This document shows positions 5,968-43,364 of a stretch of DNA of 43,364 nt, piece after piece (the first letter of the stretch is position 1; each line of letters opens with the position of its first letter). Source of the stretch: Alphaproteobacteria bacterium. GTDB lineage: Bacteria; Pseudomonadota; Alphaproteobacteria; RF32; CAG-239. The stretch spans positions 1-43,364 of the forward strand of contig JAQWBS010000012.1 of the NCBI GenBank assembly GCA_028706255.1. The letters are read 5' to 3'. The notes beneath the pieces are model-generated. The model worked only from the letters and a program-made list of their open reading frames with translations, made no database searches and had not been told where the DNA came from. The position numbers were made by a program, and so were the translations under genes.

Positions 5968-6009
5968 CAATAGCTCTTTGTTGTTTTTTCAGACACCTCT
6001 TTTGTCATC

Positions 6010-6064
6010 ATTCCCAACTTGATTGGGAATCCACCTTATGGATATTCGGGTTAAGCCCGAATAT
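6010..6064. repeat. Double-hairpin (REP-like) intergenic element
   Basis: Two perfect hairpins stand in tandem. ATTCCCAA (6010-6017) pairs with TTGGGAAT (6023-6030). ATATTCGGG (6042-6050) pairs with CCCGAATAT (6056-6064). ATCCA (6029-6033) and TGGAT (6039-6043) can form a third small stem joining them. The layout resembles the dispersed palindromic elements with CATTCCC...GGGAATCC cores found between genes in many proteobacteria. That likeness is from memory. Only one copy was noticed in this window. There is no T-run, so it is not a typical terminator. Confidence 0.6.
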
Positions 6065-6114
6065 AACAGAAAGCTAAACCTTGTTTTTTCTTCCCTTTCT
6101 CATTCAAAATCGTT

Positions 6115-6223
6115 GCAACAAAAGTTTCATATTTTCGTGACTCATTTTTTCTTGCAAAAAAAAAAAAGAATTATCATTGGTTGTATAAAGAGATTTTTTC
6201 TTACAACTAAGAGGATTCGTGTC
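6115..6223 (+). promoter_or_regulatory. Conserved promoter/leader of a cysteine-rich gene, copy 1
   Basis: This 109-base noncoding stretch is about 90% identical to 43081-43190, the leader of the partial gene at the right end of the window. It contains a run of 12 As and a conserved inverted repeat, GTTGTA (6180-6185) with TACAAC (6202-6207). The ribosome site AAGAGGA follows directly. Conservation of noncoding sequence at this level suggests shared regulation or recent duplication of the whole 5' module. Confidence 0.75.
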
Positions 6224-6937
6224 ATGAAGAAGTCATATTTTATCTTTTTGGGAGCTTTTTTACTCTTTTGTTCAAGCTTTACCTTAACTTACAATGCCTT
6301 CGCTGGCGTTTATTTCATCACCAGACCTGACAGAACTTTCGACGACATTCCTCGTGGTGGAAAAGCATGTCAATTATTGGGATATACTGTCCTTGCTTCA
6401 ACTTGCACCGATGGCAAAGAACCAACCCTCAAATGTCCAAATGGAAATTTCTATAAATCTTGCCAATGTAATATCTATAAGCTTCCATGGAATAATCTTA
6501 ACTGCACTGGCAACAAAATACTTGGCGGAAAAAACTGCGCCGATACTTATTATGAAACTTGCTCCTGCGATCCTAAATTCGCTTATGATACCACAACCTG
6601 CCCCTCTCCTAAGCTCATTTCAGGTGAATCATGTGACGGAAAACAAGAGGCTTGTAACTGTCCAACTGAATATTCTCAAACTTGTACGGGAAATTTTGTT
6701 CCAAAAAATATATTAGATTCCTGTAATGGGAAATATCGTGAATGTCTTTGCGACCCCAATGTGTTTAAGAGCTGTGATTATGGCGGTCAAGAGAGTGCCA
6801 CAAAATGTGAAGATGCGAGTGGTGAGCTTTATTCCAGCTGTCGCACCGAGCCTTTATGTGAAACAGGAGAAGTTTTTTGGGAGAGATTTGTTTGTGAAAG
6901 CACAACCTATAAAATCCCTGATGAATACTTAAACTAA
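6224..6937 (+). CDS. Cysteine-rich secreted protein with Y-x-x-C-x-C repeats (copy 1)
   Basis: This is an unrecognised 237-residue exported protein. Residues 1-28 are a signal peptide ending near NAFA|G. The mature part has about 24 cysteines in repeating units of about 30-40 residues, each with an aromatic residue, two residues, then C-x-C and often D or N, as in FYKSCQC, YYETCSCD, YRECLCD and YSSC. The mature N-terminus has the CQLLGY motif shared with three other proteins here. The upstream sequence stays open to 6023, but the ATG at 6224 is chosen because of its signal peptide and AGAGGA site. The gene at 6962 follows 24 bases later and is probably cotranscribed. With this cysteine content the protein should be disulfide-bonded outside the cytoplasm. 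The function is unknown. Confidence 0.88.
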   Translation: MKKSYFIFLGAFLLFCSSFTLTYNAFAGVYFITRPDRTFDDIPRGGKACQLLGYTVLASTCTDGKEPTLKCPNGNFYKSCQCNIYKLPWNNLNCTGNKILGGKNCADTYYETCSCDPKFAYDTTTCPSPKLISGESCDGKQEACNCPTEYSQTCTGNFVPKNILDSCNGKYRECLCDPNVFKSCDYGGQESATKCEDASGELYSSCRTEPLCETGEVFWERFVCESTTYKIPDEYLN

Positions 6938-6961: not shown

Positions 6962-7504
6962 ATGATAAATTTAAGAATTAAATTACTTATGAAAGGCTTG
7001 GGATTAATGGGGTTGACGGTCTTGATAACGGGCGAACCGGCGACGGCTCAGGTCTGCCAAAAACAACCAACTTGCGAAGAACTTGGCTATGCAAAAGCCC
7101 TCACCGATTGCCCTGACACCGCCCTCAAATGCCCAACTGACCAAACCAAAGTCTTTTGTGCTAAGGAAGAAACAAAAGAAGGATTTATTGTAGAAAATGT
7201 AGCACGATTTGCTTATTATGGTGGCAATGATAGTTTTGCTAAAACTGCTAATGGTCAGTGTATAACGCTTAGTCTTTTTAGGAGTAGCACTGGTAAAACA
7301 AATATTATTAATAAAAATCTTACTACTGTTGATATTTATTCTCTTGTTTTTGGAAATGCTGATGTATCAACAACGATAGCAGAGTGCCAAAACATACTTA
7401 GTAATATCTTCTATTACGGAAAAACAACGACCTTATTCTGTAAATATGTAGATTCACTTAGCGGAAACACAATTTCTGTTACAGATTGCTATGTATTAGA
7501 ATGA
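6962..7504 (+). CDS. Secreted protein with N-terminal cysteine cluster
   Basis: This is an unrecognised 180-residue exported protein. The first 29 residues form a signal peptide with cleavage expected near ATAQ. The mature N-terminus, about 40 residues, has a compact cysteine cluster including CEELGY, followed by a C, then KCP and FC. This cluster corresponds to the N-terminus of the preceding gene and of the protein at 17362. The last 110 residues differ: they are Thr/Ser/Asn-rich with few cysteines and may form a separate beta-rich domain. GGAGAAAAG precedes the start. It lies 24 bases after the previous stop, so the two are probably one operon. The DNA from about 7190 on is more AT-rich than the first third, which might mean the C-terminal domain was acquired separately. 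Confidence 0.82.
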   Translation: MINLRIKLLMKGLGLMGLTVLITGEPATAQVCQKQPTCEELGYAKALTDCPDTALKCPTDQTKVFCAKEETKEGFIVENVARFAYYGGNDSFAKTANGQCITLSLFRSSTGKTNIINKNLTTVDIYSLVFGNADVSTTIAECQNILSNIFYYGKTTTLFCKYVDSLSGNTISVTDCYVLE

Positions 7505-16203: not shown

Positions 16204-17337
16204 ATGGCAAAAATATCTTGGAAAGCAGGCACAATGCTTTCCCCTCTTCCCGCAGCATTAATTTCTTGCGGAACTGTTGAAAAACCCAATGTGATGACAG
16301 CATCATGGACAGGAATTATCAATTCTGAACCAACAATCACTTACGTTTCAATCAGACCATCTCGTTATTCACACGAAATCATTTCAAAGACCAAAGAATT
16401 TGTTATCAATTTAACAACTTTGGCTTTGGCACAAGCAACAGACTATTGTGGCGTTCGTTCAGGAAGGAATGAAGACAAATTCAAAAAAATGAACTTAACC
16501 GCTGGAAAATGCACTCATGTTGCTGCACCTCAAGTTGAGGAAAGTCCTGTCTCTTTAGAATGTCGTGTAATTGAAGTCAAAAAATATGGCACACATGATA
16601 TGTTTATTGCAGAAGTTCTCGGCGTTAATGTTGATGAAACGCTCGTTGATGAAGAAGGACGCCTTGCCCTAGAAAAAGCAGGCATTTTATCCTTCGTTCA
16701 CGGAGAATATTACACATTAGGCAGAAAAATTGGCTCTTTCGGATTTTCAGTCAACAAAAAAAGACTTGCATTTGAAGAAAAAAAGAAAAAAAAGCAAGAA
16801 AATGCTCCAACAGAAATTAAAACAAAATTCAGAAAGAAGCCTGTAAGTTCAGAAGCTAAATTTGATAAAAAACCTGAAGGAACTGGTGAAAAAAGATTCG
16901 AGAAGAAATACAACAGAAGACCTGAAGGAACTGGCGAAAAAAGATTCGAAAAGAAGTACGACAGAAAACCTGAGGGAACTGGCGAAAGAAGATTCGAGAA
17001 GAAGTACGACAGAAAGCCTGAGGGAACTAGTGAAAAAAGATTCGAGAAGAAGTACGACAGAAAACCTGAGGGAACTGGCGAAAGAAGATTCGAGAAGAAG
17101 TACGACAGAAAACCTGAGGGAACTGGCGAAAGAAGATTCGAGAAGAAGTACGACAGAAAGCCTGAGGGAACTAGTGAAAAAAGATTCGAGAAGAAGTACG
17201 ACAGAAAGCCTGAAGGAACTAGTGAAAAAAGATTCGAAAAGAAGTACGATAGAAAGCCTGAAAGAAAAGACGGTGAAAGAAAACCGTTTAAAAAGTCTGA
17301 TTCTTTCAAAAAAAGAGATTTTAAAAGCAAAAGATAA
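16204..17337 (+). CDS. Flavin-reductase-like (FMN split-barrel) protein with tandem-repeat basic tail
   Basis: Residues 1-190 are a flavin reductase/flavoredoxin-like split-barrel domain: an N-terminal PLPAALISCGT, then NVMTASWTG, VSIRPSRYSHEII, FVINL and a C-terminal HGEYYTLGRKIG. Members bind FMN and reduce flavins or act as electron carriers. From residue 191 to 377 the protein becomes an extremely basic tail. Its core is eight tandem 16-residue units of the type PEGTGEKRFEKKYDRK, encoded by eight 48-bp repeats. The tail is probably disordered and may bind nucleic acid or anionic surfaces, which is inference. GGAG precedes the start. The cysteine-rich gene at 17362 follows 24 bases later and is likely cotranscribed. 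Confidence 0.85.
   Translation: MAKISWKAGTMLSPLPAALISCGTVEKPNVMTASWTGIINSEPTITYVSIRPSRYSHEIISKTKEFVINLTTLALAQATDYCGVRSGRNEDKFKKMNLTAGKCTHVAAPQVEESPVSLECRVIEVKKYGTHDMFIAEVLGVNVDETLVDEEGRLALEKAGILSFVHGEYYTLGRKIGSFGFSVNKKRLAFEEKKKKKQENAPTEIKTKFRKKPVSSEAKFDKKPEGTGEKRFEKKYNRRPEGTGEKRFEKKYDRKPEGTGERRFEKKYDRKPEGTSEKRFEKKYDRKPEGTGERRFEKKYDRKPEGTGERRFEKKYDRKPEGTSEKRFEKKYDRKPEGTSEKRFEKKYDRKPERKDGERKPFKKSDSFKKRDFKSKR
16873..17256 (+). repeat. Tandem repeat, eight 48-bp units in frame
   Basis: Units begin at 16873, 16921, 16969, 17017, 17065, 17113, 17161 and 17209, each starting CCTGA(A/G)GGAACT. They differ mainly in GGTGAA/GGCGAA/AGTGAA variants that give EGTGEK, EGTGER or EGTSEK. A ninth unit at 17257 degenerates into PERKDG. 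The unit length is divisible by three, so all frames stay open on both strands. Copy number is likely to vary between strains. Confidence 0.97.
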
Positions 17338-17361: not shown

Positions 17362-17928
17362 ATGACTAAAAGCATAAAACACTTCGTTATAGCCCTCCTT
17401 CTATTTTCAGTTTCATCACCACAAGCAATTGCGGGAGTGAGGTCAATTGTGGAGCCTAATGCCCGACGAGATACGAACTATGAAAACTATCCTTCAACAG
17501 TGGATAAACCTTGTTTTTCTCAAGGTTATTCTTTAGTGACTTGCCCAACAGGGAAAACACCTGAAGACTATTGCCCAAGTGATAGCAATTTCTTCAAAAG
17601 TTGCACTTGCGACTTCAATCTTTATTCCTATTCAGAACAGAATTGTGACACAGCTAAATATGTTTTGAATGGTGAAACTTGCTCAGTACAAGGACAAGTT
17701 TTTTATAAAGGATGTATTTGTAAAAGTGATTTCAAAAAATGTGACACAGGAAGTTTTCCAAGTTCAGAAACTTGCACGGATTCCGATGGCACAAAATATG
17801 CTATCTGCAATGAGGATATTCCGAGTTGTGAAAGCATCGGTTACTTCTCTGCTGTTCCAAGTGGACAAACATGTGAAACCATTAGCAATGAATATATGAA
17901 TTGTTATCGCAATTGTGTTGCACAATAA
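17362..17928 (+). CDS. Cysteine-rich secreted protein with C-x-C repeats (third member)
   Basis: This is an unrecognised 188-residue exported protein of the same type as 6224-6937. Residues 1-25 are a signal peptide ending near AIAG. The mature chain has CFSQGY and later CESIGY, both of the shared CxxxGY type. Units with an aromatic residue, two residues, then C-x-C appear as FFKSCTCD and YKGCIC. About 20 cysteines are present. Its 5' leader is different from the 6115/43081 leader, so regulation may differ. AAGGAAAAG precedes the start. It follows the flavin-reductase-like gene closely and ends in a strong terminator. Confidence 0.87.
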   Translation: MTKSIKHFVIALLLFSVSSPQAIAGVRSIVEPNARRDTNYENYPSTVDKPCFSQGYSLVTCPTGKTPEDYCPSDSNFFKSCTCDFNLYSYSEQNCDTAKYVLNGETCSVQGQVFYKGCICKSDFKKCDTGSFPSSETCTDSDGTKYAICNEDIPSCESIGYFSAVPSGQTCETISNEYMNCYRNCVAQ

Positions 17929-43080: not shown

Positions 43081-43190
43081 GCAACAAAAGTTTCATAATT
43101 TCGCGACTCATTTCTTCTTGCAAAAAAAAAAAAAGGATTATCATTGGTTGTATAGGAAGATTTTTTCTTACAACTATGAGGAGTCGTGCC
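43081..43190 (+). promoter_or_regulatory. Conserved promoter/leader of a cysteine-rich gene, copy 2
   Basis: This 110-base stretch matches 6115-6223 with about 11 substitutions and one A inserted in the poly-A run (13 As here). The inverted repeat GTTGTA (43147-43152) and TACAAC (43169-43174) and the ribosome site ATGAGGAG are conserved. See copy 1. Confidence 0.75.
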
Positions 43191-43364
43191 ATGAAGAAGT
43201 CATATTTCATCTTTTTGGGAGCTTTTTTACTTTTTTATTCAAGCTTCACGTTAACTTACAATGCCTTCGCTGGTGTTTATTTCATTACTAAACCTCAAGA
43301 AAATGTTGTAGGAGTCAGCAATAAACCCTGCCAATTAATGGGTTATATTTATGACAGTTCAAAT
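43191..43364 (+). CDS. Cysteine-rich secreted protein, partial, cut by the window end (copy 2 family)
   Basis: Only the first 58 codons are visible. Residues 1-28 are almost identical to the signal peptide of the 6224 gene (MKKSYFIFLGAFLLF, then TLTYNAFA|G), and GVYFIT is shared just after the cleavage site. It then diverges but keeps the CQLMGY motif. About 90% DNA identity spans leader and signal peptide, ending near 43299. The full length and cysteine count are unknown because the gene runs off the window. It follows the ATP synthase genes but has its own leader. Confidence 0.85.
   Translation, partial: MKKSYFIFLGAFLLFYSSFTLTYNAFAGVYFITKPQENVVGVSNKPCQLMGYIYDSSN

Follow-up and report, generated by a model that had tools for sequence, protein, structure and literature searches.

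Head sequences with a predicted poly-A promoter spacer in a dispersed family of cysteine-rich proteins of an alphaproteobacterium: probable homogenisation by gene conversion and likely tuning of single genes by slippage

The window analysed here (43,364 nucleotides) is an entire contig (C7) of the alphaproteobacterial genome G000, and two of its genes, W6224 and W43191, begin almost identically and then diverge. This arrangement raises the question of how the heads of two genes can remain alike while their bodies diverge. The two sequences are 90.7% identical over 215 columns, from −110 to +105 relative to the ATG (approx. 6114–6328 and 43081–43295), so that the identity of approx. 90% proposed in the initial annotation for 6115–6332 and 43081–43299 was confirmed, with coordinates right to a few bases. 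The alignment stops on both sides of this block: no alignable sequence was found upstream of −110, and past the block the genes diverge as sharply as originally described, yet CQL(L/M)GY, the CxxxGY motif of that description, is present in both proteins. The shared module consists of a 110-base leader followed by 35 codons, and in most of the copies described below the likeness ends at about −111.

All features of the two window copies lie on the forward strand. The leader of the first copy (6114–6223) contains a predicted promoter element, TTGC-A12-GAAT-TATCAT (6152–6177), which at 26 nt is one base shorter than the family mode of 27, and whose predicted spacer includes an A12 homopolymer (6156–6167), one of only 16 runs of at least 11 A in the genome. 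It is followed by a possible 5′UTR hairpin (6177–6210; weak fold, z −1.8) and a ribosome-binding-site-like AAGAGGA recognized by eye (6209–6215). The W6224 gene (6224–6937) encodes a cysteine-rich protein of 237 aa with 23 cysteines, which is predicted to be secreted from a signal peptide assigned by eye to codons 1–27 (6224–6304; MKKSY...NAFA/GVYF). Inspection of the cleavage site, also by eye, revealed no lipobox (AFA/GVYF, with no cysteine at +1). At its 3′ side, the common module extends to about 6328. The next gene (6962–7504) has its own signal-peptide-like start and cysteines, lacks the module, and is a possible operon partner of W6224. A further cysteine-rich ORF with a signal-peptide-like start and no module is located at 17362–17928, and in the C-terminal half of an ORF at 16204–17337 a KKYDRKPEGTGERRFE-type repeat recurs many times in tandem.

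In the second copy the leader (43081–43190) contains the predicted element TTGC-A13-GGAT-TATCAT (27 nt, 43118–43144) with an A13 homopolymer (43122–43134). The W43191 gene (43191–43364) runs off the contig end after 58 codons. Its continuation is ambiguous: an overlap of exactly 110 bases links it to the start of contig C11, yet its last 127 bases are identical to another copy, C4_203906 (an assembly junction). Both candidate continuations are only 51–53% identical to the W6224 protein. The hairpin following the −10-like hexamer was formed by the six poly-A leaders that were folded (z only −1.8 to −0.1); it was absent from the folds of three diverged copies and was not seen by eye in other genera. 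At the gathering threshold, Rfam gave nothing in the window except a tRNA.

Searches with the W6224 protein against Pfam (E≤1), NCBIfam (E≤0.1) and PDB sequences (E≤0.1) gave no match. Its AlphaFold model (mean pLDDT 80, approx. 87–95 over residues 51–210) consists of short strands; a Foldseek search with it returned no match at E≤0.001 (best E 0.07), the weak rows being mostly cysteine-rich rods of the TNFR/EGF type. The model of C10 (605 aa) was poor (mean pLDDT 57) and was not used. The tails differ among copies, two being weakly YdcK-solenoid-like and one weakly bactofilin/hexapeptide-like, all below cut-off: Pfam PF18836 (YdcK beta-solenoid) scored 25.1 bits for P0012 and 25.8 bits for P0014, below the gathering score of 30, and NCBIfam YdcK_fam matched the tails of two copies at E 2e-9 and 1e-13, with 36.6 and 51 bits against a cut-off of 350. 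A scan of other genome contigs, from which records of the same species may be left out, gave no relative of W6224. A seven-row profile search, own-genome proteins included, retrieved 205 proteins at E≤0.001; the named ones among the best 120 belong to an 'Alphaproteobacteria bacterium' MAG, a Pseudomonadota MAG, Candidatus Scatocola and one Enterocloster entry, and suggest an alphaproteobacterial placement for the genome itself. Each of the own-genome proteins listed is represented by a single member sequence. In a wider draw, protein matches were present in 8 of 55 genomes, the genome itself included. The signal peptides suggest that the proteins of the family are exported and may be exposed at the cell surface.

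The initial annotation had proposed that the leader would recur in the genome, always with one signal peptide but with a cysteine-rich body that changes from copy to copy. A search of the whole genome (1.62 Mb in 16 contigs; completeness 99.64%, contamination 1.15%) with positions 6100–6335 did reveal 16 leaders and not just two, all at E 1.1e-13 or better (query included), and additionally a copy that lacks its head, at the very beginning of a contig (C11:1–41, E 2e-9). Chance resemblance is excluded. All 16 leaders are followed by an MKKS start and the bodies are divergent, as proposed; however, only 13 leaders are close (the query and twelve others at 81–92% identity), the remaining three having diverged to 74–76%. 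Among the 13 close-head loci, nine genes could be followed, and their bodies are cysteine-rich and different. Four copies are cut by contig ends (after 15, 15, 19 and 58 codons), and the other 12 comprise nine intact ORFs and three frameshifted ones: C8_101220m (L059), which has lost 11 bases within the signal peptide, C12_72302 (L068) and C8_49309m (L069). These three may be silent donors or may reflect sequencing errors. The ten other readable proteins of the family are 33–55% identical to the W6224 protein, and the 11 together have 19–23 cysteines each in residues 29–210. Behind some of the short copies comes a second gene.

Two further relatives (C11_272484 and C5_6166m) lack the module. 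Approximately 850–2300 bases downstream of the C11_272484 start (L070) we found two tandem genes with a nearly identical start (MNVTYKYSFPAVLGTTFFVPLSS), which have long body segments in common and differ elsewhere, and so form a second small shared-head set.

A regulon extending over unrelated genes of this genome was ruled out, because every leader found, 16 in all, belongs to a gene of this one family. The mosaic genes described below, together with the three frameshifted copies, recall systems in which silent cassettes feed a single expression site (pilE/vlsE/msp2 type), but this arrangement is scarcely credible here: every one of the 16 copies has its own leader, 13 of them with an intact promoter-like element, and of the 12 copies not cut by a contig end, nine have an intact ORF. 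With a head on each copy, and none only on the two relatives and the beheaded contig-end copy, we consider a single expression site ruled out.

The histories of heads and bodies were compared as Nei-Gojobori proportions, the head being defined as codons 1–35. Among seven module copies (21 pairs), pS was 0.09–0.46 in the head versus a near-saturated 0.55–0.82 in the body, and pN was 0–0.07 versus 0.15–0.46. An eighth copy, C2_24283, has a more diverged signal peptide (pS 0.74–0.88 to the seven), and over all eight copies head pS was lower than body pS in 24 of the 28 pairs. In the five shared-head pairs that were tested, head and body differed with Fisher p values of 8e-4 to 4e-23. If the genes had simply been copied whole, and their bodies had then diverged rapidly under positive selection with no exchange, stronger amino-acid constraint on the heads would be expected, as the pN values indicate, and the genome of the same genus (G001) that has four protein matches at 34–40% with no module match and no element makes the amplification look lineage-specific; however, the synonymous differences are also lower in the heads.

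The pair C3_49611/C4_195462 exhibits the reverse pattern, and departs from the expectation of a different body behind each copy. Its mismatches number 11 of 65 in the upstream flank (54/65, or 83% identity), 65 of 197 in the head and only 15 of 430 in the body (Fisher test: head versus body, p 5e-23; head versus upstream, p 0.017). By 40-column windows the identity is 82–90% just upstream, 50–85% over the leader and signal peptide, and 85–100% through most of +120 to +740, with a dip near +600; this profile indicates nearly one body behind two different heads. Directly before the C3_49611 leader lies a G9 run (L063, 6490–6498), one of only four runs of at least eight G in the genome. The gene at the start of contig C11, which is read from codon 23, is a mosaic: it is 100% identical to C4_203906 until approx. 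+186, and then 100% identical to C11_23615 until approx. +505. In addition, C12_72302 and C8_49309m share a tail segment of 539 bp at 97.4% identity, and their mid-bodies align poorly. In the body tree, a grouping of C3_49611 and the other eight copies with poly-A heads, to the exclusion of the three diverged ones, is rejected (AU test, p 4e-5). A C3_49611 + C4_195462 clade was not rejected on head DNA alone (AU p 0.25), a weak outcome from 192 columns with one long branch.

Both the near-identical body under different heads and the perfect identity of one gene to two others in adjacent segments contradict pure duplication, unless both are assembly chimeras, and leave it an improbable explanation. 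The discordance of head and body in synonymous sites, in the reverse pair and in the mosaic upholds the earlier suggestion that the 5′ module is copied or converted between loci, and on these sequence comparisons gene conversion or segment exchange is most likely the best explanation of the conflict.

Five of the 32 contig ends fall in module genes (binomial chance approx. 1e-7), and each has exactly 127 terminal bases in common with another copy, as expected of a junction in a k=127 graph. Breaks at 127-mers imply near-identical copies, and hence probably recent exchange. They also warn that nowhere is the assembly less secure than at the module loci; in addition, a homopolymer in a short-read assembly may be one base too long or too short. 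The five broken ends are what a chimeric or mixed bin might produce if it had inflated the number of copies and mosaics. Such an artefact is nevertheless very improbable: in 12 of the 16 copies the sequence remains readable beyond the head, within longer contigs and between flanks that differ, the completeness and contamination values are favourable to a single genome, and the predicted promoter element recurs in two other genomes (17 times in G008 and 8 times in G071).

This element, which the initial annotation missed, is the better argument for the 'adaptive variation' suggested there, and is not confined to this genome. In 13 of the 16 leaders, TTGC is followed by A11–A14, a few bases and TATCAT, which provides a −35-like TTGCAA and a −10-like TATCAT; the three other heads have interrupted A-runs. 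TATCAT lies 46 nt from the ATG in all but one of the 13, where the distance is 48 nt. The 13 leaders account for most of the genome's 16 separate runs of at least 11 A, the other three, as judged by eye, being located in an intergenic repeat (two) and between genes (one). That repeat (ATTCCCAACTTGATTGGGAATCC / ATATTCGGGTCAAGCCCGAATAT) occurs at several places, including positions 5990–6070 of the window, L104 and L059, and two of its copies end in A11. No tandem CTCTT, and no 4–6-mer in three tandem copies, was found in the 16 heads, three of which are cut short. TTGCAA/TATCAT is probably the working promoter, whose strength may be set by the length of the A-run, with 27 nt as the likely favoured state. 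Counting against this, the predicted spacer (TTGCAA-15-TATCAT) falls short of the sigma-70 optimum, and a consensus promoter scanner that considers spacers of 16–18 nt only called the element in neither window copy. Slippage in the run may occur at useful rates, but the presence of MutS in the genome speaks against it.

We consider it probable that the shared head is homogenised by gene conversion and that its poly-A spacer switches or tunes each gene at random by slippage. Each gene of the family would carry its own head, composed of the predicted promoter, the leader and the predicted signal peptide. Conversion seeded by the identical heads would spread the module and swap segments while the bodies diverge. 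A change in the length of the slippery A-run would move the two boxes relative to each other and so alter the transcription of that gene alone, with the 27-nt element as the favoured state. The outcome could be antigenic or adaptive variation, possibly selected by the host, by phage or by competitors.

Several known systems resemble parts of this arrangement. Vlp genes have a conserved 5′ region and a divergent body. In the Vlp system of Mycoplasma hyorhinis (Citti and Wise 1995), as reviewed in PMC10502178, the promoter region of every gene contains a homopolymeric A-run whose length sets transcription. The present family is likewise a multigene one encoding variable, surface-type proteins, with an A homopolymer in the predicted promoter of 13 of the 16 heads; unlike the Vlp system, the signal peptide looks like type I (by eye), the bodies are cysteine-rich, the genes are dispersed over 1.6 Mb, the host is an alphaproteobacterium, and switching is proposed from sequence. 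For the Opa proteins of Neisseria, PMC4534519 and PMC13183285 describe approx. 11 complete copies with CTCTT repeats in the signal-peptide codons that act as a translational switch. The two families have in common about a dozen complete dispersed copies, each with its own start and a variable, recombining body, and the fact that short-read data leave copies unresolved; the repeat in our case is instead poly-A in a predicted promoter spacer. In nspA of N. meningitidis, according to PMC6389960, the choice of 5A or 6A upstream of the −10 changes the transcript level, but one of its sections bears the heading 'No evidence for phase variation', a precedent that counts against switching. The position of the A-run, and in nspA the effect of its length, are comparable, but nspA is a single gene with only 5–6 A. 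The cassette systems of Anaplasma and Borrelia generate mosaic antigens by segmental gene conversion at one expression site (PMC4534519); mosaic genes occur here too, but with a head on every copy. By analogy, the design of the switch would be Vlp-like and the layout Opa-like, and we assign the module to neither system. In the open-licence literature, no paper was recognized as dealing with the W6224 family of proteins or with poly-A promoters in this group of Alphaproteobacteria. If correct, this reading would mean that slippage-driven variable repertoires of the Vlp/Opa kind exist in small-genome Alphaproteobacteria, where the literature search showed none; it would also provide a clean natural case of a head shaped by conversion and a body by divergence, and would explain why assemblies in the group break at module genes.

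The pattern TTGC-A9-N{1,12}-TATCAT was searched in 152 genomes of the bacterial family. It revealed 48 elements in 10 genomes of three genera (13 in G000, 17 in G008, 8 in G071, 4 in G022 and one in each of six genomes), versus none with the reversed control; the exact element was absent from the other 142. Outside the family, two of 380 genomes, from a class-wide draw of 385, had one match each. Several of the G008, G022 and G071 matches are near contig ends. The module itself, searched as DNA in the 152 genomes with five candidates scored in each, gave short matches in at least ten other genomes.

The length of the element is nearly constant: 27 nt in 34 of the 48, with 24 nt in two, 25 in one, 26 in five, 28 in five and 29 in one. 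The A-run and the remainder compensate for each other, A13 being mostly joined to four bases (18 elements) and A12 to five (15). When A-lengths were shuffled, a mean of 19.0 elements measured 27 nt and 34 was never reached in 10,000 shuffles; for the 40 distinct elements, 26 had this length versus 16.4 in shuffles, a value reached in 2 of 10,000, although these figures are not exact probabilities, as related elements are not independent. A length so nearly constant points to selection on the spacing, which would be expected in a promoter.

Such conservation could also mean that the A-run is a fixed architectural part. Purifying selection, and not conversion, would then maintain the head (promoter, RNA and signal peptide), with the run serving as stiff or bent DNA or marking an alternative sigma class, and the genes being co-regulated with no switching. 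The 27-nt geometry kept across genera with compensation fits this proposal, as do the persistence of the promoter core where signal peptides differ completely, the nearly identical head with somewhat different bodies in two species of one genus (G100 and G106), and the presence of MutS. We nonetheless regard it as unlikely. The leader and signal peptide differ between genera, whereas within a genome the copies are nearly the same, also at synonymous sites; 27 of 58 same-genome pairs with flanks at least 90% identical differ in element length, although the 27 are not independent of one another (L153, L166 or C11_23615 is a partner in many), and in some the difference lies in the bases outside the A-run and not in the run itself; and the reverse pair and the mosaic require exchange.

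ORFs were read behind 30 of the 48 elements, six in G000 and 24 in other genomes. Among these 24, signal-peptide-like starts were found in 20: seven long cysteine-rich ORFs (start judged by eye), five cysteine-poor ORFs with GGAIYN-type repeats that are beta-helix-like by eye, and eight that are short, frameshifted or cut by a contig end. Behind three elements nothing was readable, and one ORF is unrelated (G075, A9). The cysteine-poor proteins, with GGAIYN/GTIGDITG repeats, follow the element at L127, L138, L141, L150 and L152 (G071 and G008), so the element is not tied to the cysteine-rich family. In G008, MKHSVLCLSS/A is the head behind six of the 17 elements, which reveals head sharing in that genome too. 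On this basis we put forward, as a tentative extension that is slightly more apt to fail than to hold, a contingency regulon at the family level in little-studied Alphaproteobacteria: a slipping poly-A promoter with a favoured 27-nt state would stand over unrelated surface-protein families in several genera, each genome would homogenise its own head by gene conversion, and any new body placed behind the head would become independently and randomly switchable.

Poly-A is not needed for head sharing, as seen in G023 of another genus, where an unrelated head (MKSISRVILLSTVGLLAYG) recurs at loci L106–L116 with TTGCAT-17-TATGTT and no poly-A; its parts gave 27 matches, some of only 21–24 bp and several at contig ends. 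In G011, a related A13 element precedes a cysteine-rich ORF, but is not among the 48 because it has TAGTAT in place of TATCAT. Just past the signal peptide at L119 of G022 there are short repeats coding for HSH/HTHT-like residues, where the reading frame is broken, and these could be a second slippage site, located in the coding region.
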